Below are positions 28,927-44,222 of a DNA stretch of 64,000 bases, piece by piece (position 1 is the first letter of the stretch; the number at the start of each line of letters is the position of its first letter). Source of the stretch: Synechococcus sp. CC9605 (GTDB lineage Bacteria > Cyanobacteriota > Cyanobacteriia > PCC-6307 > Cyanobiaceae); contig NC_007516.1 of assembly GCF_000012625.1 (NCBI RefSeq), forward strand, positions 2,356,001 through 2,420,000. The letters run 5' to 3'. The translations under genes and the position numbers were made by a program. Under the pieces are notes generated by a model that saw only the letters and a list, made by a program, of their open reading frames with translations, was not told where the DNA came from and did no database searches.

Positions 28927-29484
28927 AGTGGGGCTTGACCCCCCTGCTTGCAAGGGCGTTGTCAGTGATGCCTTGGCTCCCTTGCGCTCTGCTCTGCTTC
29001 CGCTTTCAGAAAACGACGATGCTGCGATGAGGCATAGCCACTTAGGTCAATTCGGCTGGCATTGCTGCCAGCTTTGCGCCACTCCCTCGGGGGAGTGCTG
29101 GATCTTCGGTTCATGGAATCGAGTTATCGGTTCTCGCGCAGTGGGCCTTCAGCAAGGCTCTTTGGCGTTGCCCCACCTTTGCACACTTGCCTGTCCCGAC
29201 GCCAAGCGGATGAGTAATTGCAGCTACGGCAAGCCAATGGGATTGGATCGATACTCCGCCCAACGGCAAACGGCTTGTGACCCCAGAGGAGCAGTACGTG
29301 AAATGCATGGACGCTGCCTACGCCGCTTCTGACAGGGAGACCTGCCTCAAAATGATGCGAAGGGCAGAAGGCGTCCTGCGCGGTGAATTCAGCGCCCAGC
29401 CAACAAGCAATGGCCCTGGAGAGGAAGCGTTAGCGAGCTGAAGCAAAAACCCAACGAAACCCAGTGCTGCTCTGAGTTTTGAGA
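28927..29484. other. Sparse region left of the integrative element; one possible remnant ORF
   Basis: No convincing full-length gene. An in-frame stretch ending at TGA 29439-29441 reads as plausible protein (SQWDWIDTPPNGKRLVTPEE, then CMDAAYAASDRETCLKMMRR) but lacks a good start: GTG 29277 is possible. It may be a small gene or the tail of a degraded one. A perfect ACTCCC/GGGAGT hairpin lies near 29082. A longer plus-strand frame at 28928-29332 has poor protein quality and is not called. Confidence 0.35.
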
Positions 29485-29530
29485 TGGGCGATACTGGGAT
29501 CGAACCAGTGACAATCTCCTTGTAAGGGAG
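29485..29530 (-). repeat. Left attachment site (attL), tRNA-Val 3' fragment
   Basis: Forty-six bases identical to 44151-44196, covering the tRNA from the anticodon stem-loop through the T arm to the discriminator base. Identity ends abruptly after GGGAG. The remaining 5' tRNA half is absent here, so this is the displaced copy created by integration. Confidence 0.92.
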
Positions 29531-29655
29531 ACCGTCAAACTGAAAGCCGAAATCGATAAAACCCTCAAATCACTGGTCAGAAAACGGAGCAAAACTGGTT
29601 TCTAAGCCCAACAGCTTGAGCCATGCTCCGTCCTGTCATTGCGTGTCGCGACCTG

Positions 29656-29695
29656 TTGGAGCACACTTTGGAGCACGCCCACCGATTTGGAGCAC
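29656..29695 (+). repeat. Three TTGGAGCAC repeats, probable integrase arm sites
   Basis: TTGGAGCAC occurs at 29656-29664, 29668-29676 and 29687-29695, spaced 12 and 19 bp. Another copy is at 44055-44063 near the right end. Short direct repeats inside both ends of a tyrosine-recombinase element are typical arm-type binding sites. Their position argues that the integrase starts downstream, at 29705. Confidence 0.6.
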
Positions 29696-29704
29696 GCCCC
29701 TCAA

Positions 29705-30982
29705 ATGAGCCGGAGCGCACAGCCCTGGGAAGCAGAGATGCGGGCCAGCAACAAACGTGCGAACGGCTCCAACTGGACCATCCGCCAGTTGAAGGGGAGA
29801 TGCCAAATCACCATGAAGCTGGAGAGCGGCCGGAAGCCTTCGGTGCTGACCGAGATCCCCTGGCAACCCGACAAGAGCCTCAGCATCCTTAACGCGGTCC
29901 AGGAAATCCGAGCCTTCATCGAGAAGGGTCACAGCATCCAGGAGGCGAACGAAAAGCGCCTCAAGGCCCTGGGGAAGGAAAGCGGCAAGGCCCCGGCGCT
30001 CCGAGAGTTCGATTGGGTCACCGCGGCCGACGACTTCCTCAAATCGATGGAGAGCCGCCGGGAAGGCACCCTCGACGACCTTCGAATCAGAGTCCGCCGG
30101 TTCAAGCTCACGCTGAAGGCCCGGCCAACACCGAACGACGGCCCATCGTTGATGAGAGCCTTCGCTCGGCTGTACTTCGACGAGGTTTATCCCCCGGATC
30201 ACAGAAAGGCCGGGAAACTGAAACTGCCACCCGGCAAGGATGGGCGACGCCGGAATCTACGGGATGTAGCCCGGATCCTGCGGCACGGCATCGAAGAGAT
30301 GGGAGCGCCTGAACGATGGCAACCACTCCCACCAAAGAAGATGAGCGGCCTGATTGGCTCAGCAGTTACTGAAACAATCACAAAGGCAAAAACTATTCCT
30401 GTCCTCCCAGAAGATTTCGAAGCATTGTTAGACAATCTCGAAGCAGACGGAAAGCTTGAACTTAGGCTTGCCGTGGGCTTAGTTGGACTTTATGGGCTCA
30501 GGCCATCCGAGCTTGCGGTGATGCGGCTTGAGGATGACGGGAAGCTCTACGTTGGCGGCCAGGTCAAGCGCGACGCCAAAGCCATCGAGCAAGGAACGGA
30601 GAAGCCTGAGCGCCTGGTCAAACCCCTAGACCTCAATGGCAAAGAGGGATTAGGGAAGGAGCTGGCAATGCTTTGGAACAACGGCAGAGGCGTAAGGAAG
30701 CTGCCACTGGCGATCAGGAACGAAATCGCCAAAGTCGAAGAGAAGAATACCTTCAAGGAAGTCGGCGCGGCCTTCAGCCAGTTACTAACTCGATACAGAT
30801 ATTGGAGAATTCTTGTTAAAAAAACGCCAGGATTAAAGCCGTACGGACTAAGGCATGGGTGGGCATGGCGCGCTCATAAAAACTCAGAAAAGCAACTACA
30901 TTATTCCCAGGCGAGCGCGTTGCTAGGACACACAACCCGCGTTCATCTGGATTATTACAGCTCCTGGGTAAGCGAAGAATAG
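29705..30982 (+). CDS. Tyrosine recombinase (integrase), with a probable premature stop near the C-terminus
   Basis: About 425 residues. The N-terminal half is a DNA-binding region. The catalytic domain shows the first Arg in YGLRPSEL, then KPYGLRHGW (the HxxR box has Tyr in place of the first His), LGHTT, and the nucleophile in HLDYYSSW. It should catalyse integration at tRNA-Val. ATG 29705 avoids the repeat cluster upstream. The TAG at 30980-30982 is followed in frame by 17 sensible codons (LEKAVKEYNLNLKSVAP) before TGA, suggesting a recent amber mutation just after the catalytic Tyr. The protein may still work. Confidence 0.88.
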   Translation: MSRSAQPWEAEMRASNKRANGSNWTIRQLKGRCQITMKLESGRKPSVLTEIPWQPDKSLSILNAVQEIRAFIEKGHSIQEANEKRLKALGKESGKAPALREFDWVTAADDFLKSMESRREGTLDDLRIRVRRFKLTLKARPTPNDGPSLMRAFARLYFDEVYPPDHRKAGKLKLPPGKDGRRRNLRDVARILRHGIEEMGAPERWQPLPPKKMSGLIGSAVTETITKAKTIPVLPEDFEALLDNLEADGKLELRLAVGLVGLYGLRPSELAVMRLEDDGKLYVGGQVKRDAKAIEQGTEKPERLVKPLDLNGKEGLGKELAMLWNNGRGVRKLPLAIRNEIAKVEEKNTFKEVGAAFSQLLTRYRYWRILVKKTPGLKPYGLRHGWAWRAHKNSEKQLHYSQASALLGHTTRVHLDYYSSWVSEE

Positions 30983-31127
30983 CTGGAAAAAGCCGTCAAG
31001 GAATACAACCTAAACCTCAAAAGTGTTGCGCCCTGACGTGACATGTGCAAGTCTCTTTATGTGATATCGGAACCGCAGCAGCACGTCTGCCTCCGGGGGA
31101 TCAAACCGAACACATCATCCCTGCTGG

Positions 31128-31388
31128 ATGCAAGGTCCTGATCGCCCAATTCCGATTCGTCCTGGTCGCCTGACCCATTGGCCTGAAGGTCATGATCGTC
31201 AGCACCTGGAACGTCTGGTTCGCTATTTCACCCGCGCGCGGGTGCGATTAGACGCAGGCTTCTCAATCGGAACGCTTGATAAAGGCAATCCTGATCAGAA
31301 ACGCCGGGACAAAAAGGCCGAATGGATGGCCAAGCTCCAGGCGGAACTCCTTCATCACGAGAACTGGGATGGCACCCCACGCACGTAA
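31128..31388 (+). CDS. Hypothetical element protein, 86 aa
   Basis: A basic 86-residue protein (LTHWPEGHDRQHLERLVRYF; DKKAEWMAKLQAELLHHENW) between the integrase and the excisionase-like gene on the same strand. No domain recognised. A 32-residue ORF starting near 31043 overlaps its start but looks weaker. Position suggests a regulatory or accessory role in the element. Confidence 0.5.
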   Translation: MQGPDRPIPIRPGRLTHWPEGHDRQHLERLVRYFTRARVRLDAGFSIGTLDKGNPDQKRRDKKAEWMAKLQAELLHHENWDGTPRT

Positions 31389-31403
31389 CGGTGCGTCTGC
31401 CCC

Positions 31404-31652
31404 ATGCCTTGGCTCAAGACCCGCCCAACGGCGGAAGCTGCTGGATGCAGCGACAGAACCCTCAAGCGGAACATGGATTTCCGCGGAGGCTGCCTAAATC
31501 TCGGCGAGCACTATCGCCACGGTCCGTCCGCCAACAGCTCCTACGTCTGGAATGTTGAGCGTGTGATCGAAGCCTTGGCCCACCGTGGACTGGTGGCCGC
31601 CAAGGGCCGCGAGCTGCTCCTCAAACTCAAGGCGTCGGAGCAAAAAAATTGA
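31404..31652 (+). CDS. Excisionase-like HTH protein
   Basis: An 82-residue protein whose N-terminus (TAEAAGCSDRTLKRNMDF, then GGCLNLGEHYRHGP and SSYVWNVERVIEALAHRG) matches the winged-HTH layout of small excisionase/MerR-like proteins in cyanobacterial islands, where a 'TLKR..F..G.HYR' core is common. It likely directs excision with the integrase (inference). Its stop overlaps the next start (TTGA). Confidence 0.65.
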   Translation: MPWLKTRPTAEAAGCSDRTLKRNMDFRGGCLNLGEHYRHGPSANSSYVWNVERVIEALAHRGLVAAKGRELLLKLKASEQKN

Positions 31653-31828
31653 ACGACGCCACAATCTGCAGCGCCGGTCAGGGTCCGTGCAATGGCCCGA
31701 CTTTAGGCGAGTTCCTCCTACTGAAGGAGATTGTCAACTGCGCCAGACACCAGGCTGAGACTGACTTGGGCATGGCCGCCTGGGGCTTTTGTGCTCCAAA
31801 CCGTGCGCGAGAACGGAGGTGGCCATGA
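31649..31828 (+). CDS. Small coupled element protein, 59 aa
   Basis: TTG 31649 overlaps the excisionase-like stop (TTGA), with GGAG 8 nt upstream. Its own stop overlaps the primase start (ATGA at 31825). The product has four Cys (CSAGQGPC early, then VNCARH and GFCAPN) and an amphipathic middle (LGEFLLLKEIV). Double overlap on both sides is strong evidence for translation. Function unknown; the Cys pattern could bind metal. Confidence 0.6.
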   Translation: MNDATICSAGQGPCNGPTLGEFLLLKEIVNCARHQAETDLGMAAWGFCAPNRARERRWP

Positions 31829-33069
31829 TTCCGTTCGAGGAATTGGCGGCCAGCGGCATCGACCCCTCCACCGCCGCGCGGCTGAACTATCGCTGCACTC
31901 CCGATGGTGGTTGGGAGATCCCCTATCTCGACCCCCAGGGCCAGCCGTACACCTTTGGCGATGGTGTCCCGTTCGTTCGCCGCAAACTCAAGCCAGGGTC
32001 AGACCCGAAATACCTGACACTCTCCGGTGCGGGTAATCGCCCGTACCTTTCACCGCTGCTGCCCGCGGGATACCTGCAAGGGACCAAGCCTCTTCTCATC
32101 ACCGAGGGGGAGAAGAAGGCCGACAGCCTGACGGCGCACGGCTTTCCCACGATTGGGTTGACCGGCGTTTACGGCTGGAAAGACCGTCGCGGTGAAACGT
32201 CAGCCCCCATCCCAGAGCTGGCGGTGATCAACTGGAAACGGCCCGTCCGCATCGTTTTCGACAGCGATGTCGTGATCAAGCCCCAGGTCCTCGACGCCTT
32301 GCGAGACCTAACCGAGCACATCGTTGGCGGTTTCCACCCTGACGATCCAGGGCTCGGCGGGCACATTCCCGACGTGGTGTTTCTCCCGTCAGAACTGAAC
32401 GGGGAGAAAAACGGTGCTGACGATTTCGTCGTTCGGCATGGGGCCGATGCCTTCGCTCGACTGCTGCGCTTGGCTCGGCCAGCGGTCCAGTGGAAAAGCA
32501 AGAAGCCTGTCTTCTGGAGCCCGGAAGCCGACAACGCCCACTTCATCGCTCAGGCGTTCATCTCCGTGCTTCAAGAGCGTTACGCCATCCATCCCACGCG
32601 CGGGACACTCACGTTCAACGGCAGGCACTTGGAGGATGTGCCGGGAAAACATCCACTGCTCGGACCCCTCCACCAGCTGATGGATGAACACAACTTTCAC
32701 CGTCGTGGGCGGCGAATGATGGAGATCCTGTCCGAGGTGGAGACCTACCTCCAGCACAACGATTGGGACGGCAACCACCTGGCGGCGTTCAGCAACGGCA
32801 CGCTTGACCTAAGTACCAACATCCTTCGCCCAGGCCACGATCCAAGCGACCGCCTGACCTTCGCGTTCCCTTATCGGTGGGACCCCAAGGCGACGTGCCC
32901 ACGTTGGCTGCAGTTCATCGAGCAAACCTTCGACGACGACACCGCGAAAGTATTTCGGGCGGCTATCGGTTGGACGATCAAACCGAAAAAACAGGATGCA
33001 CCCTTTCCCTTCGAAAAAGCGTTCGACATTGCAGGGCCGAAAGGCTGCGGGAAGGGAGTGATCGGTTAA
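31825..33069 (+). pseudogene. Phage/satellite primase-helicase, N-terminal part up to an in-frame TAA
   Basis: 414 codons from ATG 31825, with a strong GGAGGTGG site upstream. The first half is a DUF3854/Toprim-like primase region (LLITEGEKKADSL, GLTGVYGWKD, IVFDSD). The second half is the D5-type region (FSNGTLDLSTN, DRLTFAFPYRW) leading into the SF3 helicase Walker A AGPKGCGKG. A TAA at 33067-33069 interrupts the frame four codons after Walker A, and homologous sequence continues in the same frame at 33070. Whole gene: 31825-34137. It would replicate the element; it is probably inactive unless the stop is read through. Confidence 0.85.
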
Positions 33070-34137
33070 GTGATCCGCGCACTCTGCGGCGGTGGGCATG
33101 GTGCCGCGACCCTGCGGCCAAAGATGATCGGCTGCCCTGACTCAATGCTGGGGCTGCATGGGAAGAAGGCTGCAATCGACTACGACTCCAGCGGAGTTGT
33201 GAACGATCCAGGCCAGTTCAACAGCATCGTTTCCAACGAGCCGGTGCAGGTCTGGCGCAAGTTCTCAAACAAAACTGATGCACGCCTCGGCGTGGTGATC
33301 TGGCGACTCTTTAATGATCTGCCTGGGGTCTCCGATTCCGGTGGCGTCGAGGGGATGCAACGGCGCATCATTACTTTCTCGATTGGGCAATCGGTCCGGC
33401 GAAAGGATCCCAACCTCAAAGAAAAGCTCTGCGAAGAGCTGCCAGGGATCCTGCAGTGGGCTTGGTCGTTATCGCGCGATGAAATCCGGAAGGCGTTTGA
33501 CGCCGCCGGTCGCATCGCCAGCATCAGCGAGGCATCCATCGAGGCGCAGCTCAATGCGAGCCCATGGCTGAAGTTCCTGATCGAGGTTTACCCCGACGGC
33601 ATCCAGGACATCGCCGCCAAAAAACTATTTGAGCGATACCAGCAGTGGTGCGCAGACGAAGGCCGCAGGGCGGTCCTGAACAACACGAACTTCGGCCTGA
33701 AGCTGAAAAAACTGACGGCTCCCAAAGGGGTGGAGGGTTCACGCCTACCAATCGTGAAACGCGAGACCAAAACCGCGAATCGATACGACATCAGTCCGAT
33801 GCGCGACTTCGATTTGGCGCTGTTCTTCGGCCTGACGGTCTCCAGTGAAGTGTTTGACCCTCCACCGGTGGAAAGTTCAACGCCAAACCATCTACCGCCG
33901 GATCCAGCGCCACCAGATGGATCTCCGGCAGGGGTGAACAGTGTGGATAGTTTTTCTCCACCGCTTCACGCGGAGAGAAATGGAGTGGGTTCAAAGAAGG
34001 GGGAGAAACCGAAGCGGAAAAACCCTTCAAACCCTCCACAACCTTCACTCCCGGGCCTGAACGCTGCCCCAATCGGGTCAACTTACGATGTCGAATCAGG
34101 CGACGACGACCCCCACTGGGGCCCCCGACCGGCCTGA
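33070..34137 (+). pseudogene. Phage/satellite primase-helicase, C-terminal part after the TAA
   Basis: Same frame as 31825-33069, separated only by the TAA. It contains the rest of the SF3 helicase: AAIDYDSSG in the Walker B region and IWRLFNDLP with a downstream QRRIITF (motif C and arginine finger). A C-terminal DNA-binding-like domain (LFERYQQWCADEG) and a Pro/Ser-rich tail follow. GTG 33070 directly after the stop could restart translation, but the product would lack Walker A and most of the primase. Confidence 0.82.
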
Positions 34138-34277
34138 CCTTCTCCCAATACAAGAGATGGTTTCGCCCCCGCAAAGTCAGATCGCCAATGAATTTCGCGG
34201 AGCAGATGATCAGGAACATGCTCCAACCCGTACTCCAAAACCCCGAGACAGTGGGCTGGCGCAGGGCTGTGAACTGA
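34088..34277 (+). pseudogene. Possible small frameshifted gene overlapping the primase end
   Basis: ATG 34088 opens a frame reading MSNQATTTPTGAPDRP. Just after, a neighbouring frame reads well (LTFSQYKRWFRPRKV, then MNFAEQMIRNMLQPVLQ and ETVGWRRAVN) and ends at TGA 34275-34277. Together they suggest one small gene broken by a 1-nt frameshift near 34135. The uninterrupted first frame runs to 34282 with poorer sequence. Tentative; no family recognised. Confidence 0.35.
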
Positions 34278-34423
34278 CCTGAGTCCGTGTTCGCTCGGGA
34301 GGCTCCCAAGAGTTGTCAAAACCGCATAAGGCTCAGAAGTAAAGCTTGTGGAGCTGGTTGATTCATTTGGCACAACAGAGACGGAAGAACTTCTATAAAG
34401 TTGTTAAGTTTTTTAACGACGCT

Positions 34424-34558
34424 ATGGACAGCAAGTTCGGCTTCTCATCTTTCGCTGAAACCTGGAATGGCCGCCTGGCAATGATGGGTTTCATCATTGG
34501 TCTTGGCACTGAGATACTCACAGGTCAAGGGATCCTTTCTCAGATCGGGATGGGGTGA
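34424..34558 (+). CDS. High-light-inducible protein (HLI), element-borne
   Basis: A compact 44-residue HLI: FAETWNGRLAMMGFIIGLG is the chlorophyll-binding helix, followed by the usual TEILTGQGILSQIG C-terminus. Longer upstream starts add unrelated residues, so ATG 34424 is chosen. It sits in AT-richer DNA and overlaps the next small gene by one base. Short phage- and island-type HLIs of this kind are common in cyanophages. Photoprotective role by family. Confidence 0.9.
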   Translation: MDSKFGFSSFAETWNGRLAMMGFIIGLGTEILTGQGILSQIGMG

Positions 34559-34707
34559 TGCCCAAAGAGGAAATTGATGTTTGGGCACCCGAAACGCGTC
34601 TTGGGTACTTCAAGCTCTTTTACTTCGGAATGCTTGTGGCAGCGATTTGCGTCGGTGGGAACACAGCACTTGGCTCCCTTTGGCCAACCATGGCTATTGG
34701 GCAATGA
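34558..34707 (+). CDS. Small membrane protein coupled to hli, 49 aa
   Basis: Its ATG overlaps the hli stop (TGATG), implying translational coupling. A polar N-terminus (PKEEIDVWAPETRLGYF) is followed by one membrane segment (YFGMLVAAICVGGNTALG). Pairing with hli suggests a thylakoid partner of the HLI protein (inference). Family not recognised. Confidence 0.6.
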   Translation: MPKEEIDVWAPETRLGYFKLFYFGMLVAAICVGGNTALGSLWPTMAIGQ

Positions 34708-34778
34708 TCCGAGAGCTGACACCTGTTTTCTGCTCAAGGTGCCGACTAGTCGTCACAAGACATCACAACAATGCCGCT

Positions 34779-34988
34779 GCTCATTTGAAACTGCTCTTGG
34801 CAACATCTAAAGCACGTGCATCCGACCTACGTTCCATACTTTGTTCGGAAGTTTCAGTCGCATGGGCCTTCCATCCAATGGTTTCTCCAATGACCATTGG
34901 GCGCTGAGTGTCAGCGTTACCATCCCGCGCCGACACAGCAAGCAACGGCCTGACTCCTCTTTTGAAGGGGAGGAGTCAGATCAGCGTT
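34779..34988 (+). repeat. Structured repeat unit U1 (long-spacer type)
   Basis: Leader box near 34779-34807; hairpin 1 CCAATGG/CCATTGG (34874-34900); hairpin 2 CTGACTCCTC/GAGGAGTCAG; ends TCAGCGTT at 34988. Like U6 it has about 45 extra nt between the hairpins, which can pair GTGTC with GACAC. Confidence 0.8.
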
Positions 34989-35028
34989 GCGTGAACAGTG
35001 GCAGGCAACGAGTCCAGGACATTGATGT

Positions 35029-35203
35029 GACTCAAAAAGTCGCTGCATACGCATCATATTGTCAGCACTTAATCCGTAGACAAAGCAATAGTCAGTATGG
35101 AGCATCCACAACCTCCAGCCAATGGTTTAACTACAGCCATTGGGCGCTGAGTTTCACTAACTTCTCTGCCAATGAGCATCGACGGGGAAGTCAGTTCAGC
35201 GTT
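35029..35203 (+). repeat. Structured repeat unit U2
   Basis: Leader box is degenerate (35029-35060). Hairpin 1 is exact (CCAATGG/CCATTGG) and is followed by GGGCGCTGA. Hairpin 2 is weak (AACTTC/GAAGTC). The unit ends TCAGCGTT at 35203. A 72-residue ORF begins 30 nt after it. Confidence 0.75.
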
Positions 35204-35232
35204 GATCAACGTCCCAGGGATCTTTATCAACA

Positions 35233-35451
35233 GTGTTGAATTCAAAAGCACTTCAACGTCTTGTGATATTGAATTACAAGAATGCCGAAGGTGAAGAGCT
35301 GGTTGGCCTAGCTCTGGAATTAGTAGAGGAATCGAACGGCGGGATTCAAGTACGAGTACTTAGGGATTCAAATATAGTTAGCTGTGTATCGGTGTTCCCC
35401 TTGAAAGAATGCAGAGTGGATGACTTGCAAGGATGTGACTGCTGCGAATAA
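35233..35451 (+). CDS. Hypothetical element protein, 72 aa
   Basis: Starts at GTG 35233, 30 nt after repeat U2. Reads as a small beta-rich protein (LVILNYKNAEGEELVGLALE; IQVRVLRDSNIVSCVSVFPL) ending in GCDCCE. Its stop directly adjoins the end of the convergent metallothionein gene. The Cys-rich tail might bind metal, but this is speculation. Function unknown. Confidence 0.6.
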   Translation: MLNSKALQRLVILNYKNAEGEELVGLALELVEESNGGIQVRVLRDSNIVSCVSVFPLKECRVDDLQGCDCCE

Positions 35452-35610
35452 TTAGCAGCAACTACAACTAGAGCAACATTGCTCATCACCGGCATGACCA
35501 TCAGCACATGGCTGAGAGCAGTAAATCTTGCCTTCTTTCTCAATGGCTTTTTCCGGATTGACGCAGCAGCCACAGGGTTCACATGCACATGGGTGGTTTG
35601 TGGTTTGCAT
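35452..35610 (-). CDS. Bacterial metallothionein (SmtA/BmtA-like)
   Basis: A 52-residue protein with 12 Cys, including CACEPCGCC near the N-terminus, IYCSQPCADGH in the middle (a zinc-finger-like loop typical of cyanobacterial SmtA) and CCSSCSCC at the end. It sequesters Zn, Cu or Cd in the cytoplasm. Cyanobacterial SmtA usually has 9 Cys, so this variant is richer. It is carried on a mobile element, convergent with a 72-residue ORF. No SmtB-type repressor is visible in the window. Confidence 0.9.
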   Translation of the reverse strand: MQTTNHPCACEPCGCCVNPEKAIEKEGKIYCSQPCADGHAGDEQCCSSCSCC

Positions 35611-35725
35611 GGCGTTGACAAAGTATTCCCACCTTTATAGATAAAAAATCAATCGACGCATCCCTCAAACATGTTTATAGCATCTTGTTTCTTCAATCAA
35701 AGAAGAACCAAAGTATTCACACAGC

Positions 35726-36028
35726 TCATATCTCTACGCCGTCATCACGATGTTCAAAGTCTACCCAATGAATACAATCAACGGGACAGATATCAATCGC
35801 CTCCTGGATTCGATCTATTGTATCGCCATCTTGTCGCACAGCACGGCAACGACCTGTTTCTGGGACCATGACAAAAGTATTAGACGCCACATGTGCACAG
35901 TAACGACAACCAATGCAATCAGACTCATCAACCCAAACTGCTTTTTCACGCAATGCTCCACCCAAAGATGGCTCTAGCCCAGTGCGAAGACCATTGCAAC
36001 TACCTGATTTAGCCGAGAAAGCTGCCAT
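35726..36028 (-). CDS. Ferredoxin, Fe4S4 type
   Basis: About 100 residues. The cluster motif CIGCRYCAHVASNTF is followed by a C-terminal CPVDCIHWV, which together fit a single-cluster Fe4S4/Fe3S4 ferredoxin of the type often linked to cyanobacterial DnaJ-ferredoxin fusions. ATG 36028 gives the natural N-terminus; an upstream in-frame ATG adds eight residues. Electron carrier by family; partner unknown. It lies next to the phycobilisome-linker gene, both on the minus strand. Confidence 0.85.
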   Translation of the reverse strand: MAAFSAKSGSCNGLRTGLEPSLGGALREKAVWVDESDCIGCRYCAHVASNTFVMVPETGRCRAVRQDGDTIDRIQEAIDICPVDCIHWVDFEHRDDGVEI

Positions 36029-36078
36029 AACTGATTTTTCCGAAATGTACATAATTCTGGTTTAACTCAATATCTCAC

Positions 36079-36825
36079 TCAAATCGTGAACATCAGACGG
36101 AAGACTAAAAGCACCAAGGAAACACTTCCAACACCTAAAACAAACAAGAAAACAAGCCAGAGTTTTAAAAGACGACCCTCAGGCTTTTCATAGATCAGAC
36201 GGGATACCGTCATTGGCCGCCTGATTTTATTGAAGGCATCTACAGAGATCATTAATCCATCACGAATCAGTCGATCACGCCAACTTTCTCCATAGCGAGG
36301 AAGTCGCTCATAGATAGGCATCTCTTCTTGAGAGCGTCCTGGCAAAATACGATTTACTTGATCGGGAATTCCATCAATTCCAAATCTCTCAAAATACTCA
36401 GGAGATCCCAATATGTCATCAACAAAAGCTGCAAATCCCTGCTCGGCAATAACAATGGACCAAGATTTCACTTCATCTTGTCCGTAAACAGGACGACCAA
36501 GGACACGGCCTATGACCTGCTCAACTAGTCGATCGTTTCCATTGCATTCGACGTAACCCCTATAAAAACGATCTGAAAGTAGTAGTCCTCTTATAAAATC
36601 TCTTACGGTGATAGAACCTGAACTAAGCTGTGATTCTAAAAATCGATCACGATCACAACTCATTGCATGAAAATATATCTGCCGATAACATCTTTCAATT
36701 ATTTCTGACGACAAATCAGGCGCTCGATCCAAACAGGGTTGACGAGAAGCTGATATTGAGTCAACTCGAGAGTTTTGACTTGATGGCTTGAATGGCAGGC
36801 GAGCCCTGGCAGAAAGAGAGGCCAA
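36079..36825 (-). CDS. Phycobilisome linker-domain protein with C-terminal membrane helix (CpcL/CpcG2-like)
   Basis: A 248-residue protein. Residues about 40-175 form a phycobilisome linker domain (IIERCYRQIYFHAM; VRDFIRGLLLSDRFYRGYVE; VEQVIGRVLGRPVYGQDEV; DDILGSPEYFERFG). The last 30 residues (LLKLWLVFLFVLGVGSVSLV...) form a membrane helix. This layout matches CpcL/CpcG2, which anchors membrane-bound phycobilisome rods to photosystem I. The specific photosystem role here is inferred. It lies in the mobile element, 51 nt upstream of the ferredoxin gene on the same strand. Confidence 0.83.
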   Translation of the reverse strand: MASLSARARLPFKPSSQNSRVDSISASRQPCLDRAPDLSSEIIERCYRQIYFHAMSCDRDRFLESQLSSGSITVRDFIRGLLLSDRFYRGYVECNGNDRLVEQVIGRVLGRPVYGQDEVKSWSIVIAEQGFAAFVDDILGSPEYFERFGIDGIPDQVNRILPGRSQEEMPIYERLPRYGESWRDRLIRDGLMISVDAFNKIRRPMTVSRLIYEKPEGRLLKLWLVFLFVLGVGSVSLVLLVFRLMFTI

Positions 36826-37030
36826 TTAATCTGAAGTGATATTGCATTATTAAAGACATCAAAAAATTACTGGCAAAAGCAATGAATACCTCTAACGAAG
36901 ATAATCAACACACCCCGCGATCACAAAAGGCATATTGTAAAGACCATTTGATACGACATTAGGTAATTTATAAAAGTCCCATGTGGCAACACTCCTCAAT
37001 GATGGGTTTGGTCATCACGACAAAAGAGCT

Positions 37031-37348
37031 ATGGCTTTAAGCGAATTCGAAATTGCGATAGGCGGGCTTACTTCTATCCCTGTAGTAGGTGGACTATTCT
37101 TTCTAGGATACAAGTCTTTTGGCGAAAGTACCTTAGATACAAGCAAACTTAAGCCCAAAAAAAAGCCAGCAGTCGCAAAGGCAACACCCACAACTGACAA
37201 AAAAAACCCTGAAGCAAAAAGCCAAAAGACAGAGAAAAATATCAATACGACTAATACTAACAAAGAAAAAACTTCTGCGGTAGAACAGCCAAATTCAGCT
37301 AAAGAGGAAACATCAATATCAAGCAAAAAGCAGCCTGAAGAGAAATGA
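37031..37348 (+). CDS. Hypothetical membrane-anchored Lys-rich protein
   Basis: From ATG 37031, about 105 residues: an N-terminal hydrophobic segment (GGLTSIPVVGGLFFLGY) and then a long Lys/Thr/Asn/Glu-rich low-complexity tail. A GTG at 36983 would add 16 residues. Composition is AT-rich. The layout suggests a membrane-anchored disordered protein; function unknown. Confidence 0.5.
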   Translation: MALSEFEIAIGGLTSIPVVGGLFFLGYKSFGESTLDTSKLKPKKKPAVAKATPTTDKKNPEAKSQKTEKNINTTNTNKEKTSAVEQPNSAKEETSISSKKQPEEK

Positions 37349-37657
37349 AAAGTGATGCCACCAAATCAAACAGACAAACTGCAAAGCAGTAGGAGATTAA
37401 TAAAGCCAAACTAGAAAACATATAGATGATATGCCCGATCAAACTAAGTCTTCTCTGCTTGAAATGAGTAGCTATTCAGGCTGTCAGTAGAAGCACAAAA
37501 ATATACGATCTACATGTCACAAAATAAACATTCAGGCGCAGTTATTGCGACCCAATGAGATCGATATTCATCCAGGGAAAGCAGCATCTTGGACATGGAT
37601 TGCTATCAAATTATTTCATGAGGAAAGCGCAGCCAACGAAGATATGATTTTAAACTA
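37349..37657. other. AT-rich intergenic region, no gene seen
   Basis: No ORF with convincing protein quality and no copy of the structured repeat. The composition is strongly AT-rich, as in the neighbouring cargo genes. Possible promoter sequence for the 37658 gene, but no clear motif is identified. Confidence 0.4.
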
Positions 37658-38026
37658 ATGGACATTCTCAATGTTCTTGTTGGCATTACCACGATTTTCT
37701 GGATTGCCACTGGAATCAAAACACACAGCGATTGGATTCAATCGATCTTTGTCAACGAGAGCAAAAAAATCCGGCAACAAACAGAAATAATTAGTGAGTT
37801 TGGCTACAGCGCACTCAACACACGCAACAAACTTGAGGCCAAGAAAGGACTGGTCTTAGCCTATTGGGACAAGCCCCTTGGAAAACAAAAAAACGAGGGA
37901 ACTCCTAAACAAATACAAAGTCCGATCATTTTTCAGCTGGTATCACTAAGCCTGATAACTTGCACTTCAATTGTATTATTAATAGCTCTGAGCAGAGGTC
38001 TTTTCTCAATACTAGGTCTGGTTTAA
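37658..38026 (+). CDS. Hypothetical two-helix membrane protein, 122 aa
   Basis: Hydrophobic segments at both ends (ILNVLVGITTIFWIATGIK; IFQLVSLSLITCTSIVLLIA) flank a charged central region (KKIRQQTEIISEFGYSALN). The reading frame is clean with an ATG start. No family recognised. It is the last gene before repeat U3. Confidence 0.55.
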   Translation: MDILNVLVGITTIFWIATGIKTHSDWIQSIFVNESKKIRQQTEIISEFGYSALNTRNKLEAKKGLVLAYWDKPLGKQKNEGTPKQIQSPIIFQLVSLSLITCTSIVLLIALSRGLFSILGLV

Positions 38027-38159
38027 TAGCACCCCAACTTTAACTTAAGTCGTAGACCTAGTAATACTTCTAATGCTCGATGACCAAAAGTCAAGGCACA
38101 TAATAATGCCTCACTTTGTCTAGAGCATTAGCCAGACATTCCGCAACATATCTGGCGTG

Positions 38160-38327
38160 CATTTGAATGCAGCTATCACCTCATCTGTACTGCACTTAGC
38201 TCATGGCTAGAGTGACAATTCCATTGGAAGTTCTGTTATACAGCACTTCCATCCAATGGAGTGATGACCATTGGGCGCTGTTCAGGGACTGACTCCTCTT
38301 CTGAACGGGGGGAGTCAGTTAAGCGTT
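38160..38327 (+). repeat. Structured repeat unit U3
   Basis: Leader box 38160-38187; CTTCCATCCAATGG paired with CCATTGGGCGCTG; hairpin 2 CTGACTCC/GGAGTCAG. The terminal box reads TTAAGCGTT (one change from TTCAGCGTT). About 213 nt follow to U4; they hold only a 19-codon hydrophobic ORF near 38417. Confidence 0.8.
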
Positions 38328-38540
38328 ACTAGCGCCTAAACATCGCAAAGTGATGTTTACCTATGCGTTCCGCTCCTGCGGTATTCATCATGTAGTCAAA
38401 GGTAGATCCTGACCCATGGTTCCTTTCGTGCTGCGAATCATTGGCCTAGTACTAATGTTAAGTAACATCATCTAAGGGACTACTCCTCAGAGCCAAAGCA
38501 AAGGTATGCATTGATAGGCATCTTTGGCAAAATTGATGAG

Positions 38541-38713
38541 ACTCATTTGATCACTGCCTCTACATCATCTGATTAGTAATCACCCACAGCAGAGGCAATG
38601 ATTTTTATGGAAGTTCTGCCGTTAGGGCTTTCCATCCAATGGCCTATCCACAGTCATTGGGGCGCTGGAGAGTAACTGGCTTCTCTTCTTCAGTGGGAAG
38701 CCAGTTCAGCGTT
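38541..38713 (+). repeat. Structured repeat unit U4 (compensatory changes)
   Basis: Leader box ACTCATTTGATCACTGCC at 38541. Hairpin 2 reads CTGGCTTC/GAAGCCAG instead of CTGACTCC/GGAGTCAG: two base pairs changed on both sides, keeping the stem. Ends TTCAGCGTT at 38713. Confidence 0.82.
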
Positions 38714-38752
38714 GTCTCACTATTGACTTCACCACGTAGAAACATAGGCAAC

Positions 38753-38870
38753 GATCATTTGGCTACTGCCATTGCCTCATCGCAACGGAACAGCATCCAT
38801 CCGCAAGCCATGCTTGTTGTGGAGCCTCAGAACCTCCATCCAATGGAGTGATGACCATTGGGCGCTGAGG
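38753..38870 (+). repeat. Structured repeat unit U5, truncated
   Basis: Leader box and hairpin 1 (CCAATGG/CCATTGGGCGCTGA) are intact, but hairpin 2 and the GCGTT end are missing; sequence diverges after GCGCTGAGGGAC. It starts only 39 nt after U4. Confidence 0.7.
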
Positions 38871-38940
38871 GACACAGCCTAAAGACACTTAGTCATCGAT
38901 TTTTTACAAAGAGTATTTGGTCGACAAAATCCAAGAGGCT

Positions 38941-39186
38941 ATGAAGCGATCGTTGAAGATTATATTTATTTTATCTCTCTACATACTTATCTGCGGTTGT
39001 GTTCTAGTTATAGCCATTCGCGAATCAACAAGACAGCCAATTGGTCTATTAGTAGTAAGTATGGCATTAACTCCAGCCATTGTAGCTATTTTTGGCGGCT
39101 TACCTGTTAATTTTCTAGAGGAAAAATTTAAAATGAAGGGTGATAATAGTTCAACCGCGAACGAGGAAACTAAAAAAGCTAACTAA
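38941..39186 (+). CDS. Small two-helix membrane protein, about 81 aa
   Basis: From ATG 38941 (AAGAGG just upstream): KRSLKIIFILSLYILICGCV is the first membrane helix and IGLLVVSMALTPAIVAIFGG the second, followed by a charged tail. TTG 38917 would add eight residues. AT-rich. Function unknown. It ends 34 nt before the convergent flavodoxin gene. Confidence 0.55.
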   Translation: MKRSLKIIFILSLYILICGCVLVIAIRESTRQPIGLLVVSMALTPAIVAIFGGLPVNFLEEKFKMKGDNSSTANEETKKAN

Positions 39187-39220
39187 GGTTCGTAATGGCA
39201 TATATTGCGCCCATTGACTT

Positions 39221-39736
39221 TTATATAATCGCCTCCTGCATAATTAACCTGGCCCAAGACTGGAGTCGCTCATCGGTTTTTTCGGATTCATTATCTTCAT
39301 CTAAAGGCAGGCCGCAGAACATGCCGTCAACAACACTTTTGGAATTATCAAAGATATATTGCTCAACTGATACGTGGCCGATCATCCGACCTCCTGCAGA
39401 TTCAAATAGTTTATAAAGCTCTTCCATTGCATCACAAAAATACTTACTGAAGGCCGCAGAATCACCCAAACCTACAATCGCAATCGGCTTGCCTTTTAAG
39501 GATAAATGAGGAATATTATCAATATGCTGATCCCATGTTGTACCTGATCTCTTGGTTTCAGAACCCGTATTCCAAGTTGGAGTACAACAAATGAGTGCCT
39601 CAGACTCTTCCAGCTCTTTTGTAAAATCTATTCTATCAAGGTCTTTTAATTCCGATCCCGGCAAAAGCACTTTCAACCTTTCCGCAATATCTTCTGTATG
39701 ACCAGTTGCAGACGCATAAACAATGGTAAAGCGCAT
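39221..39736 (-). CDS. Flavodoxin
   Basis: A 171-residue long-chain flavodoxin. The FMN phosphate loop is YASATGHTEDIAERL, and the later loops TPTWNTGS and GLGDSAAFSKYFCDAMEEL fit the family. Flavodoxin replaces ferredoxin as electron carrier under iron limitation. It sits on the mobile element beside small membrane-protein genes; no iron-responsive operator was identified. Overall fold clear, physiological role by family. Confidence 0.9.
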   Translation of the reverse strand: MRFTIVYASATGHTEDIAERLKVLLPGSELKDLDRIDFTKELEESEALICCTPTWNTGSETKRSGTTWDQHIDNIPHLSLKGKPIAIVGLGDSAAFSKYFCDAMEELYKLFESAGGRMIGHVSVEQYIFDNSKSVVDGMFCGLPLDEDNESEKTDERLQSWARLIMQEAII

Positions 39737-40295
39737 AAAACCAAGAAAGATACTGAATGGTAAATATCAGCTTCATTCCCCTTGTTCTTATTTGACATAT
39801 CGAAGTCACCCAAAGCACTGATGCAACTCACTTATGCGTCTAAACTAAGTTGCTTCTACTGACAATAAGCAAAATGCTTGCCGTAAACCAAATCACTAAC
39901 ATCGGATTTGTCTATTTGCTTGGCCAAATGAATACATGCAGATTATTCAATACACAAACTAATCTTGAACGATTTTGCTCTGCAAAAAGGAGGCCGCCCC
40001 TCCCAGGTGGAAGAGACGGCCTAGCTCGCTCGCTTGTGCATGGTTCAATCCATCACTATTGAAGAGAGAAAGGATCGAAGCTTCTGGCTAGAGGCGCCCT
40101 GGGGCCATTTGCTCTAGAGGATGGGTCGTTTTCTCCTAGGGCACCTCATGCGGTGCAAGCGGAGCGTCGAATGGCGTGACGTATCTGATGTGTACCTAAC
40201 CAAACGACCAACCCAGGTCATTCATGAGACTGTTGGAGCAGGGGCCAGAAAGTCAGTCTGCTTCTTGGATCTGCTCGGTTGGACCGTCGTCTCGC
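39737..40295. other. Mostly non-coding stretch upstream of flavodoxin
   Basis: Candidate frames here (for example 39850-40062 and 40121-40318) have poor protein quality. A weak hairpin AGGCCG/CGGCCT spans 39991-40022. The part next to the flavodoxin start probably holds its promoter, but no motif was identified. Confidence 0.35.
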
Positions 40296-40475
40296 ATGGA
40301 CGCCTCCGATCTCGATGACCATATTTTTGTGCCTTCAGGGCACAAAGTCATCGGCATTAAGGCGCATTGCCCCTTTGATGGAAACTACGCGAATGTTGGG
40401 ATGGCTTGCCACAACGGGTTGATCCAAGCTTTGGGCACTGACGAGAAGCACTGGCTCCTGTGTTTGAGGGAGTAG
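40296..40475 (+). CDS. Possible small protein, 59 aa
   Basis: From ATG 40296 the frame reads MDASDLDDHIFVPSGHKVIG, then CPFDGNYANVGMACHNGLIQ and HWLLCLRE, which looks plausible as a short soluble protein. An in-frame ATG at 40224 gives a longer product of lower quality. No family recognised; 36 nt before repeat U6. Confidence 0.35.
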   Translation: MDASDLDDHIFVPSGHKVIGIKAHCPFDGNYANVGMACHNGLIQALGTDEKHWLLCLRE

Positions 40476-40511
40476 TCGGTTCAGATTCTTCGCTTGCCAC
40501 CACATTGGTGT

Positions 40512-40726
40512 GCCTCATTTAGTTACTGACACTGCCTCATCTGAACTGCACTGAACCCCCAGCAGGAGCGAAGATATCCGCGGAAGTTCAGTCGCATGGA
40601 TCTTCCATCCAATGGAGGGGCAATTTCCATTGGACGCTGTGTATGTCTACGCTTATCCAGTCCGGCGTTGACATAGCAAGTGACGGCCTGACTCCTCTCC
40701 TCAACCAGGGGAGTCAGTTCAGCGTT
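40512..40726 (+). repeat. Structured repeat unit U6 (long-spacer type)
   Basis: Leader box at 40512; hairpin 1 CCAATGG/CCATTGG then ACGCTG; about 45-nt insert before hairpin 2, able to pair ATGTC with GACAT where U1 pairs GTGTC with GACAC. Ends TTCAGCGTT at 40726. Confidence 0.8.
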
Positions 40727-40818
40727 ATCTGACTGGTGGTGAGCAACGTCTCCTAAACCTCAATGGCGTTGTGTCGCAGCATCCGCTGCAGCTCAGTCCA
40801 AGGTGATCTAGGAATCGG

Positions 40819-40994
40819 TCTCATTTGGTCGCTGCCATCGCCTCATCTGAAAGAGCGCAGCCCACGAAAGAACTGATCGTGTCTTTGGGAGTTCCGTTGC
40901 TGGGCGCTTCCATCCAATGGTTTCTCCAGTGACCATTGGGCGCTGATCAGAAGCTGACTCCTTCATTCGCAACCGGGGGAGTCAGTTCAGCGTT
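40819..40994 (+). repeat. Structured repeat unit U7
   Basis: Leader box 40819-40849, then AAGAGCGCAGCCCACGA shared with U8. Hairpin 1 and hairpin 2 (CTGACTCC/GGGGGAGTCAG) are intact; ends TTCAGCGTT. Only 16 nt separate it from U8, so the two are nearly tandem. Confidence 0.82.
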
Positions 40995-41010
40995 TTGACT
41001 AGCTTCGACG

Positions 41011-41191
41011 ACTCATTTGGTCGCCGCTGTCGCCTCATCTGAAAGAGCGCAGCCCACGACAGGGGCGATGTTGTCTTAGGAAGCTTCAGTCGGATGAGCC
41101 TTCCATCCAATGGTTTTTTCGTTTTAACCATTGGGCGCTGTCAAGAAAAACTGCCTCCCTTTCTTGGCGGACGGGGAGTCAGTTCAGCGTT
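41011..41191 (+). repeat. Structured repeat unit U8
   Basis: Leader box and the AAGAGCGCAGCCCACGA stretch match U7. Hairpin 1 is exact. Hairpin 2 reads CTGCCTCC/GGAGTCAG with one mismatch. Ends TTCAGCGTT at 41191; U9 starts 23 nt later. Confidence 0.82.
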
Positions 41192-41214
41192 TTGACGGCC
41201 AAAACATTGCGACG

Positions 41215-41385
41215 ACTCATTTGGCAACTACCATCGCCTCATCTGTATCGAGGTGTGCACCCGACGGGGTGATTCTGTCCCCGGAGTCCCCAAGACCTCC
41301 ATCCCATGGTTTTTGTAGGGACCATTGGGCGCTGTCCAGAAAAGCTGACTCCCTTTCTTGGTGGACGGGGAGTCAGTTCAGCGTT
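41215..41385 (+). repeat. Structured repeat unit U9
   Basis: Leader box 41215-41245; hairpin 1 reads CCCATGG/CCATTGG; hairpin 2 CTGACTCCC/GGGGAGTCAG. Ends TTCAGCGTT at 41385, 13 nt before a small ORF. Confidence 0.82.
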
Positions 41386-41398
41386 AACTAAGGGTGAC

Positions 41399-41572
41399 TT
41401 GACCTCGGGAAAAACGACTGAGTTGCTGGAAGTAGTCACCGCGATTGTCGTCACGGCAGGGCTGGTTGGCGGAAACCTTCTGCTGTTCTCACCATTGCGG
41501 ATAGACAACAGGATTAAAGCTCCTGCACCTCCAGCTCAACCTGAGAGCGCAGCTGGCCCAGTATTTAGGTGA
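41399..41572 (+). CDS. Small membrane protein in a cassette-like interval, 57 aa
   Basis: From TTG 41399 the product has one membrane segment (EVVTAIVVTAGLVGGNLLLF) and a Pro/Ala-rich tail (KAPAPPAQPESAAG). Reading upstream in the same frame crosses repeat U9, so the start must lie after the repeat end at 41385. Repeat U10 begins 22 nt after its stop. Function unknown. Confidence 0.5.
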   Translation: MTSGKTTELLEVVTAIVVTAGLVGGNLLLFSPLRIDNRIKAPAPPAQPESAAGPVFR

Positions 41573-41594
41573 ACAGCTATGGACGTTGGCGCGG

Positions 41595-41758
41595 CTCATT
41601 TGATTACTACCATCGCCTCTTAAGAACAAGCAGTTGCCATGGACGGTGCGACTGTGATGTTGGAGGTCTACCTCCAATCAATGGCCCCTGCATGGCCATT
41701 GGGCGCTGATAACACCACTGACTCCCTCTCTGACGATGCGGGGAGTCAGATCAGCGTT
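41595..41758 (+). repeat. Structured repeat unit U10
   Basis: Leader box 41595-41620; hairpin 1 CAATGG/CCATTGG, with CCTCCAATC before it; hairpin 2 CTGACTCCC/GGGGAGTCAG; ends ATCAGCGTT at 41758. Confidence 0.8.
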
Positions 41759-41822
41759 ATTTCATAGGCAGCTGCAACTCGTCTAACTGCCAGAAGCAGT
41801 AGAGACCTACTTGAAAAGGTGT

Positions 41823-42071
41823 ATGTCAATTGATCATGCAAGTGGCGTCTCAACGCCCAAAACAGATCCGGTCTTTCTCCACGTCAAAGCGGGAATGGCG
41901 GTGATCATCAAGAACACTGACGAGACCTGGCGCATGGCTGACGTCGTTAACGTTATTGGCAGCGCCAAAAACCCGAAGGTTCCAAAGTTTTTCCAGGTGA
42001 CATATGTGGATAATCACATCACCAACTGGGTCAATGCTGACATTGTGACTCACATCGTTCCAAGGGTCTGA
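41823..42071 (+). CDS. DUF3104-like small protein
   Basis: An 82-residue protein matching the small DUF3104-type family of marine Synechococcus: FLHVKAGMAVIIK, WRMADVVNVIGSAKNPK, FFQVTYVDNHITNWVNADIV and THIV are the characteristic segments. ATG 41823 is preferred over TTG 41811. It lies between repeats U10 and U11. Family function unknown; members are usually in variable genome regions. Confidence 0.8.
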   Translation: MSIDHASGVSTPKTDPVFLHVKAGMAVIIKNTDETWRMADVVNVIGSAKNPKVPKFFQVTYVDNHITNWVNADIVTHIVPRV

Positions 42072-42125
42072 AGTGCTGGCATACACAGCGTATGAGCAAA
42101 CTCCTGCACCTCGGAACGTTGACGC

Positions 42126-42292
42126 GAATCATTTTGACTCTGACATTGCTTCATCTGGAGAGAGACCACTCAACGACAATGTGATTATTTCTTCGGAGTC
42201 CCCAAGACCTCCATCCAATGGCAAGCCGTGGTCATTGGGCGCTGACAAGAAAGCTGGCTTCTCTTCTGACCGGGAGACGTCAGTTCAGCGTT
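42126..42292 (+). repeat. Structured repeat unit U11
   Basis: Leader box 42126-42157; hairpin 1 CCAATGG/TCATTGG then GCGCTGA; hairpin 2 CTGGCTTC with imperfect partner GGGAGACGTCAG; ends TTCAGCGTT at 42292. Last copy seen. Confidence 0.78.
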
Positions 42293-42529
42293 ATCTAGCT
42301 GGAGGCGGGCAGCACCTAAAGGTCTAAGACCTAAGAATCATTCCTTAGCCAGGTTTCACAACTCCGAGCAGCGGAGACACCAGAATCGGCATGAAATCGT
42401 AGTGATAATAATTAGTTGTTTTTCTATTGTCTTCCGACAACTATTTCTGGCCAACATTTAGCATTTCAGTCGACGTGGCTTACTCAAGGGATCAGTCACC
42501 ACTAACCCAAGAACCCCTATGCCGTAGGT

Positions 42530-42667
42530 TTATCGACAAAAATCTTCCCTCTTAAGCGGTGTTTTCCGCTCGTTATTCTTAACATAGAAGAACGCCGCTG
42601 CGGCAACGCACAAAAGCGGTAATGCAGTAAAAAGTAGAAGTGCAATAGCAGTGTAGTCTTGATGCAT
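42530..42667 (-). CDS. Small membrane protein, 45 aa
   Basis: From ATG 42667: a short polar N-terminus (MHQDY), one membrane helix (TAIALLLFTALPLLCVAAAA) and a basic tail (KNNERKTPLKREDFCR). The layout is that of small single-pass thylakoid or plasma membrane proteins. Reading frame and start are clean. Function unknown. Confidence 0.55.
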   Translation of the reverse strand: MHQDYTAIALLLFTALPLLCVAAAAFFYVKNNERKTPLKREDFCR

Positions 42668-42926
42668 AGCAAGAGAAATTTGCTATGCATTAATTTCTAA
42701 AATAAAGATCACTATGTCGAACTCTACCCTGCCCTGAACCAAAAGATATTGCACGCTGTTGGCCAATGAACGAGGACATCTTAATCATATGCGAAAAGCC
42801 AATCACATGCGTCATTAGGCATCAATAAACTGCCTGCAAATCACCAAAAAATAAAAGACGAGGCATGCCCATTAGCAGCTTTGCAAGTGAGAAGCTATGT
42901 ATTTAACTATATCTTGACTTATAGAA

Positions 42927-43151
42927 CTAACTTCCCTTGGCTCTAAATCCTTCTCGAAAAGACTCCAAATCTTGCCTTGCTCTCAAATAAACGATGAGAC
43001 GTTCACAACTTTGAGATTCCATCCAGTTCGCTTCAGAGGCAACAACATTTGCGTAAAGTGCACGCTCAGTTTTGGTTTCAAAGCGCACTAAACCTTCTTC
43101 CAAAGGTGCATGGACGAAATAATCCCAATTAGGTTTAACCACCTTCAACAA
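42927..43151 (-). CDS. Hypothetical protein, 74 aa
   Basis: A 74-residue soluble protein (LKVVKPNWDYFVHAPLEEGL; TERALYANVVASEANWM; CERLIVYLRARQDLESFREG). ATG start with an AT-rich upstream. No domain recognised. It is followed leftwards by AT-rich DNA. Confidence 0.55.
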   Translation of the reverse strand: MLKVVKPNWDYFVHAPLEEGLVRFETKTERALYANVVASEANWMESQSCERLIVYLRARQDLESFREGFRAKGS

Positions 43152-43166
43152 ATCACTAAAAATAAT

Positions 43167-44063: not shown

Positions 44064-44150
44064 GTTTTAGAGTACACCTAGATGAAAATCAAGAAAAGTG
44101 GCCTCCCTGCTCAGAGCATAAAGCCAATGCTGGTCGTTACTTTGGAGGAA

Positions 44151-44196
44151 TGGGCGATACTGGGATCGAACCAGTGACAATCTCCTTGTAAGGGAG
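44151..44196 (-). repeat. Right attachment site (attR) within tRNA-Val
   Basis: The 46 bases identical to 29485-29530. Here they are part of the intact tRNA-Val gene (44151-44222). Confidence 0.92.
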
Positions 44197-44222
44197 GTGC
44201 TCTACCGCTGAGCTAATCGCCC
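44151..44222 (-). tRNA. tRNA-Val(UAC)
   Basis: A 72-nt tRNA. It starts GGGCGATTAGCTC, with D-arm AGCTCAGCGGTAGAGC, anticodon loop CTTACAA (anticodon UAC), T-loop GGTTCGATCCC and acceptor 3' strand ATCGCCC plus discriminator A. CCA is not encoded. The acceptor stem pairs perfectly. It is the integration target of the element to its left. Confidence 0.95.

Follow-up and report, generated by a model that had tools for sequence, protein, structure and literature searches.

A phycobilisome linker on a mobile element

Why would a mobile element carry a phycobilisome linker with a membrane tail, and what would such a linker do? The question is raised by one open reading frame in a 64,000-nucleotide stretch of the chromosome of Synechococcus sp. 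CC9605 (the window), which lies in an island next to a tRNA-Val gene. The gene is very probably cpcGIII. We see about an even chance, judging from sequence, that it encodes an iron-stress linker that holds phycocyanin rods to the thylakoid membrane, with photosystem I (PSI) or PSI-IsiA as the probable docking site. In CC9605 the gene has been captured by a tRNA-integrating element. Coordinates of the features discussed below are collected in Table 1.

Table 1. Features of the tRNA-Val island and its linker gene (positions in the window)
Feature	Position	Strand	Remarks
attL, 47-nt copy of tRNA-Val 3′ end	29484..29530	.	repeat and junction comparison with G023
Tyrosine integrase-like ORF, 447 aa	29639..30982	+	PHROG integrase E = 5.7e-6
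P4/D5-type primase-helicase, first part	31789..33069	+	ends at in-frame TAA 33067-33069
P4/D5-type primase-helicase, second part, same frame	33070..34137	+	Pfam/NCBIfam/PHROG searches
High-light-inducible protein (Hli), cargo	34346..34558	+	PHROG 4.2e-11; Pfam Chloroa_b-bind just under cut-off
[4Fe-4S] single-cluster ferredoxin (Fer4_13)	35726..36052	-	26 nt downstream of linker
CpcG-type phycobilisome linker with predicted C-terminal membrane helix (very probably cpcGIII)	36079..36825	-	248 aa
Predicted C-terminal membrane helix of linker, residues 218-246	36088..36174	-	coordinates derived from residue numbers
PF00427 linker domain, residues 40-155	36361..36708	-	coordinates derived from residue numbers
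Small protein, one hydrophobic stretch and lysine-rich tail	36983..37348	+	divergent from linker; homologue in 12/16 other loci
Small protein, two hydrophobic helices	37658..38026	+	homologue in 13/16 other loci
Flavodoxin, cargo	39221..39736	-	Pfam/NCBIfam searches
attR, 47-nt repeat within tRNA-Val	44150..44196	.	repeat and junction comparison with G023
tRNA-Val (TAC), integration target	44151..44222	-	second repeat copy is its 3′ part

The linker gene and its product

The linker ORF is real and under purifying selection. It begins with TTG, immediately preceded by an in-frame stop, and TTG is the start codon in 7 of the 12 linker copies compared, that of CC9605 included. The ratio dN/dS was 0.13 to 0.24 against 9 of 11 orthologues (dS was saturated for the other two and exceeded 2 in three of the nine), which indicates that this is not a chance ORF. 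No internal stop was found in any of the 17 copies in the genus. Constraint is weaker in the tail than elsewhere in the protein, with about 4.5 nonsynonymous and 2.5 synonymous changes relative to the copy in the related genome G028.

The original prediction described the product as a linker domain followed by a C-terminal membrane helix, and this layout was upheld. PF00427 was matched at residues 40 to 155 (E = 2.8e-32). The NCBIfam matches were limited to the CpcG1-4 exception models, all far under the cut-off, while both the linker-domain phylogeny described below and an N-terminal QN.RV segment place the protein in the CpcG family. Tail hydrophobicity was compared as the top Kyte-Doolittle 19-residue mean within the final 60 residues, which for the CC9605 linker is 2.84. 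After removal of four rows (rod linkers or fragments) from 148 candidates, the remaining 144 CpcG-type linkers fell into two sets, 82 above 1.4 and 62 below 1.0, with a clear gap between them.

An AlphaFold2 model built from an alignment of 58 linkers (mean pLDDT, 81.3) shows the linker domain as helical, followed by one helix at residues 218 to 246 whose ten-residue blocks have pLDDT of 77 to 97. Foldseek and VIA-align both ranked phycobilisome CpcG-type and CpcL chains at the top. Synechocystis CpcL (8hfq chain n) aligned with Z 23.4 over 186 residues and the phycobilisome chain 9wg7_42 with Z 22.9, these structural matches barely covering the C-terminal helix.

A third rod-core linker gene, cpcGIII, was reported in marine Synechococcus by Six et al. 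2007 (PMC2246261). Since the CC9605 genome holds three close CpcG-type matches and the island linker stands apart from the other two, we take it to be, very probably, that gene. The accessible part of the same paper (PMC2246261) does not describe cpcGIII as membrane-anchored, island-borne or linked to iron stress. No description of CpcGII or CpcGIII as membrane-anchored was found in the literature covered, which leaves out most subscription papers. In a 2022 survey, TMHMM predictions pointed to CpcL in 42 of 65 cyanobacteria (PMC9415938), and a 2026 paper, of which part was available, has a cpcL gene in Cyanobium (PMC13342260); part of the membrane-linker finding may already be known through these two sources. 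The gene itself is thus known; its predicted membrane anchor had, as far as we could see, gone unrecognized, and to this come a separate CpcL-like clade and an iron-stress context.

The linker is cargo of a tRNA-integrating element

The island is 14.7 kb long. At each of its ends stand the same 47 nt from the tRNA-Val 3′ end, a direct repeat without mismatches. Comparison with relatives identified the junctions. G023 has flanks that are 96% identical, and there a single copy of the repeat follows the left flank and leads into the rest of the tRNA gene. Flanks are also contiguous across the repeat in G003, G012, G021 and G033, so that five relatives have an empty site. The integrase-like ORF scores 0.0094 with Pfam, under the cut-off, in addition to its PHROG match; it is 30 to 43% identical to integrases of the genus, none exceeding 43% over most of its length, with shorter matches reaching 52%. 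GC content is 60 to 64% outside the island, 55 to 60% in the integrase and primase part, and about 40% around the linker. That the linker is mobile-element cargo, as the original prediction held, is confirmed by the exact repeat, by the att junctions against the single copy in G023, and by the integrase-like ORF and primase inside the island. The further description of the element as satellite-like fits the integrase/primase layout, with the qualification that a stop codon breaks the primase reading frame. That TAA splits the primase just past a Walker A-like segment.

Tycheposons and other tRNA-integrating satellite-like elements combine integration at tRNA 3′ ends, direct repeats, a tyrosine integrase, a primase-helicase and cargo genes. 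The CC9605 island resembles tycheposons in each of these features, but its primase is interrupted.

Two relatives carry related islands. G027 has a 13.4-kb island at the tRNA-Val site with the same ends and cargo, from which the integrase and primase region is absent; homology jumps from window position 29609 to 34239. In G028, whose tRNA-Val site appears to be vacant, another island (L051, G028:C4, 3191-17206) matches window positions 34130 to 44067 at 88 to 91%, though with gaps. This island has tRNA-Arg(TCT) on one side and, on the other, a partial copy of the 3′ end of that tRNA gene (27/29 positions). The G028 island encodes a VapE-type helicase-primase, and no PF00589 integrase was found on contig C4, which carries it. 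The cargo block thus occurs at tRNA-Val with a P4/D5 primase and at tRNA-Arg with VapE, that is, at two integration sites and with two replication modules. We suggest that such elements would move the linker module between tRNA sites among close relatives.

Interspersed, partly palindromic repeats with units of about 200 nt occupy positions 34853..42311, mostly between cargo genes. One unit recurs with 91% identity at 1,455,805 of the CC9605 chromosome, between flavodoxin and isiA, and others lie near integrases; matches were present in G003, G022, G023, G027 and G028 and absent in G001 and G012. These repeats may mediate recombination between islands.

Carriage of the linker by phages was also considered and received no support: there was no match in 50,697 phage records and none was confirmed in two IMG/VR scans, a result that does not settle transfer.

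Picocyanobacterial tail-bearing linkers form their own clade

A full-length relative of the linker is present in 17 of 34 genomes of the genus, CC9605 included, and the other 16 proteins are 48 to 95% identical to it. Its place among CpcG-type linkers was determined with a tree of residues up to 190, which excludes the membrane tail. The 144 linkers were reduced to 111 by dropping rows at least 90% identical to a kept row and then to 110 by dropping one distant row. Tail-bearing linkers fell into three supported clades (ultrafast bootstrap/SH-aLRT): a Synechocystis-type clade of 11 members (99/94), an Anabaena-type clade of 5 members inside Anabaena-type CpcG (100/99), and a picocyanobacterial clade of 47 members (100/99) that includes the CC9605 linker and CpcGII. 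The first two are labelled CpcL by their nearest single-linker PDB chains. The tail is present in 46 of the 47 picocyanobacterial members; in the lone tail-less one, L222_m891, it looks frameshifted. Soluble CpcGI adjoins the picocyanobacterial clade (100/88).

Constraining all tail-bearing linkers to one clade was rejected (AU p = 6e-14), and joining the picocyanobacterial and Synechocystis-type clades gave a weak p = 0.03, the groups in both tests having been named after the tree was seen. The CC9605 linker groups with CpcG-type rod linkers and not with non-phycobilisome linkers, a grouping that would have refuted the original prediction. Of the proposal that it is CpcL-like, the layout stands, while membership of the classical CpcL clade, taken as a phylogenetic statement, is rejected by the three-clade tree and the single-clade constraint.

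The Synechocystis 6803 CpcL/CpcG2 and the CpcL chains 9wd5, 9w4j and 9w7k, which we take to be of Anabaena type by their match, are like CpcGIII in length, linker domain, linker-domain fold and C-terminal hydrophobic helix. Consistent with the tree, an F-N-E-Q motif is present in 6 of 6 Synechocystis-type rows and in 2 of the 3 Anabaena-type rows shown (the third ends before the motif). In contrast, CpcGIII and CpcG rows have an F-F-H-A-like motif at this position, where the alignment shown reaches it. The bilin-contact arginines of Synechocystis CpcL are R16, R163 and R169, according to the part of the report available (PMC10322944). Two of the three are kept in the CC9605 linker (R20 and R164) and the third is replaced by N158; the Anabaena-type CpcL rows (n = 3) also lack two of the three in this alignment. 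Judging from the tree, the CpcL-like layout apparently arose several times. The alternative to repeated gain of the tail would be exchange of linker domains between tail-bearing genes.

The nearest paralogue group of CpcGIII is CpcGII, which has the same kind of tail. In CC9605, this rod-operon paralogue is about 53% identical to the island linker and has a predicted hydrophobic C-terminal helix. CpcGII differs from CpcGIII in being chromosomal, in lying in the rod gene region and in being more conserved (mean 76% versus 58%, 11 genomes). Because CpcGII falls in the tail-bearing clade, CC9605 already has a chromosomal linker of this kind, to which the island adds a second. CpcGII may thus serve picocyanobacteria in general as a membrane rod linker. 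If so, there would be a simple explanation for why CpcGII was not detected in the phycobilisomes of four strains, as the accessible part of Six et al. 2007 reports (PMC2246261).

CpcGII was found in at least 26 of the 34 genomes of the genus, with a predicted C-terminal membrane helix in those inspected (L207 G000:C1:438900-441300, L030, L031 and L037-L039). A distant linker with a hydrophobic tail (33% identity, 253 aa) was encountered as a minus-strand ORF at offset 7046 of L137 (G013:C13), on the same contig as the cpcGIII of G013 and about 17 kb away from it.

Neighbors of the linker suggest a role in iron stress

The ferredoxin gene immediately downstream is a probable operon partner of the linker. 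Among the 16 other loci, 10 have a ferredoxin of the Fer4_13 type beside the linker. The divergent small protein with a lysine-rich tail probably starts, by comparison, at an ATG near 37031. The small two-helix protein matched no family and gave a poor AlphaFold2 model (pLDDT 61.8, pTM 0.31); it is a possible partner of the linker. A second flavodoxin gene of CC9605, at 1.45 Mb in the isiA region, is 59% identical to the island copy.

An isiA gene, identified above the TIGR03041 cut-off, is found about 1.3 to 1.7 kb away from the linker in six of these 16 loci (G001, G002, G004, G005, G013 and G018). It is not adjacent in CC9605, where isiA is at 1.46 Mb, about 0.93 Mb away. One cluster, that of G005, was annotated in detail. 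Its order is flavodoxin, reductase, hydrolase, isiA, [2Fe-2S] ferredoxin, linker, ferritin, solute-binding protein and Fe2+-dependent dioxygenase, with 7 of the 9 genes on one strand and small ORFs left out. Family searches name the solute-binding protein as bacterial solute-binding only; we presume that it is iron-binding IdiA/FutA. In G001, isiA is accompanied by the linker, both small membrane ORFs, hli and three further small ORFs of the CC9605 island. The CC9605 cargo thus resembles the isiA neighborhood of other lineages minus isiA.

Among the 34 genomes, which are related, isiA was found in 15 of 17 with the linker versus 4 of 17 without it (Fisher p = 4e-4), and flavodoxin in 17 of 17 versus 3 of 17 (p = 1e-6). 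Gene absences in these counts are unsure, because 15 of the 34 genomes fall short of 90% completeness or exceed 5% contamination, some being 53 to 89% complete. Relatedness was then controlled by taking independent pairs from a psbC tree of 27 genomes. Of 5 pairs, a mean of 2.7 had isiA together with the linker (median p 0.25) and a mean of 3.7 had flavodoxin together with it (median p 0.125), and neither gene ever went against it; with so few pairs the linker/isiA association was not significant. Dufresne et al. 2008 name isiA, isiB and a specific ferredoxin for four strains (PMC2441476). Going by the accessible parts of both papers, these are the same four strains in which Six et al. 2007 report cpcGIII (PMC2246261).

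No Fur box with up to 3 mismatches was found in a scan of the window. A looser scan gave p 0.87 upstream of the CC9605 linker and p < 0.05, uncorrected, for 3 of 24 upstream regions, among them that of the G001 linker. Since the CC9605 isiA and isiB controls were also negative, the looser scan is uninformative.

Similar gene company has been described elsewhere. In Trichodesmium, cpcG2 follows isiA2-4 and falls 30-fold on iron addition, and the authors liken the cluster to isiA2-4-cpcG2-isiA5 of Leptolyngbya JSC-1, as stated in the part of the paper available (PMC12090762). Both are cases of an iron-regulated phycobilisome linker gene beside isiA-family genes, as is proposed here for CpcGIII. 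These cpcG2 genes belong to other cyanobacterial lineages, however, and were compared by description, being absent from the linker tree. No linker was found at E 1e-6 in ten isi stretches (nine of them from eight non-picocyanobacterial genomes), of which 10/10 held an isiA-like gene and 6/10 a flavodoxin.

Probable inheritance mainly within the lineage

Distances among CpcGIII proteins track those among CpcGII proteins (11 genomes; Mantel r = 0.75, p = 0.0004). Spread across lineages is therefore not the main pattern. On the psbC tree, presence and absence of the linker requires seven changes. Together with the changing integration sites, these results suggest that the lineage has long had cpcGIII as an accessory gene, frequently lost and at times remobilized among close relatives, rather than one widely transferred. 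The idea that the island provides horizontal tuning of light harvesting is accordingly sustained as regards island cargo and not as regards distribution, which follows lineage and the presence of isiA and flavodoxin instead.

A proposed membrane-held rod and its possible partners

In Synechocystis CpcL, the PF00427 domain fills the membrane-proximal phycocyanin hexamer, and the membrane part was not resolved in the structure, according to the part of the report available (PMC10322944). By analogy, the linker domain of CpcGIII would fill the cavity of a phycocyanin hexamer and its C-terminal helix would insert in the thylakoid membrane, so that a rod would be held there without an allophycocyanin core. 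The membrane partner would be PSI, or PSI ringed by IsiA. Expression of cpcGIII would rise at low iron, when PSI is scarce and flavodoxin replaces ferredoxin. We infer PSI, perhaps with IsiA, as the likeliest partner because of the gene company.

The partner could differ. In one account that we consider rather unlikely, CpcGIII is a membrane-anchored rod linker whose partner is photosystem II, NDH-1 or lipid alone, and the rods serve another complex or form a reserve antenna. Homology by itself does not carry PSI binding over to CpcGIII, whose clade is distinct from that of classical CpcL; yet the isiA, flavodoxin and ferredoxin neighborhood points to the PSI side. Nor need the tail be in a membrane at all. 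CpcG proteins bind the core via their C-terminal part, and the linker domain has the CpcG-type and not the CpcL-type motif, as would suit an ordinary rod-core linker of a hemidiscoidal phycobilisome with its tail packed inside. The tail hydrophobicity argues against this, lying outside the range of all 62 tail-less linkers. Detection of the paralogue cuts both ways: mass spectrometry did not find CpcGII in phycobilisome bands of four strains, whereas an earlier detection in a WH8102 phycobilisome fraction is cited in the same source, seen in part (Six et al. 2007, PMC2246261). On balance, this role as an ordinary rod-core linker is quite improbable.

What the island is for can also be read differently. 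The hli gene on the same island and the mobility of the island would fit horizontal tuning of light harvesting to light color or intensity and not to iron. We regard this as unlikely: no light-color sensor was present among the 14 island ORFs scanned with Pfam, relatives show an isiA, flavodoxin and ferritin context, and the correlation with CpcGII distances speaks against tuning by transfer. The interrupted primase, together with the absence of the integrase and primase region in G027, might instead mark the linker as a passenger in a decaying island, with no present function. The purifying selection on the linker and its 17 uninterrupted copies make this very improbable.

The favored reading, an iron-stress linker docking rods at the membrane, can be extended into a bolder proposal, which we advance tentatively and consider possible more than probable. 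Picocyanobacteria would have evolved membrane-anchored rod linkers (CpcGII and CpcGIII) independently of CpcL; CpcGIII would plug phycocyanin/phycoerythrin rods onto PSI-IsiA in iron starvation; and elements with different tRNA genes and primases would shuttle a low-iron PSI antenna kit (linker, ferredoxin, flavodoxin and Hli) between close relatives. To our knowledge, direct feeding of PSI by phycobilisomes has been little explored in marine Synechococcus. If CpcGII and CpcGIII are membrane linkers, abundant ocean phototrophs would have core-free, membrane-held rods like those of CpcL phycobilisomes, reached by a separate evolutionary path. The link with isiA would tie antenna partition directly to iron limitation, in a way that can be tested. 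The island itself is a case of a mobile element carrying a light-harvesting part.

Another feature of the window

At positions 55856-59803, the window holds a 1315-aa ORF across whose span ORFs of 106 to 107 aa recur every 339 nt; the long ORF therefore probably has a long internal tandem repeat.
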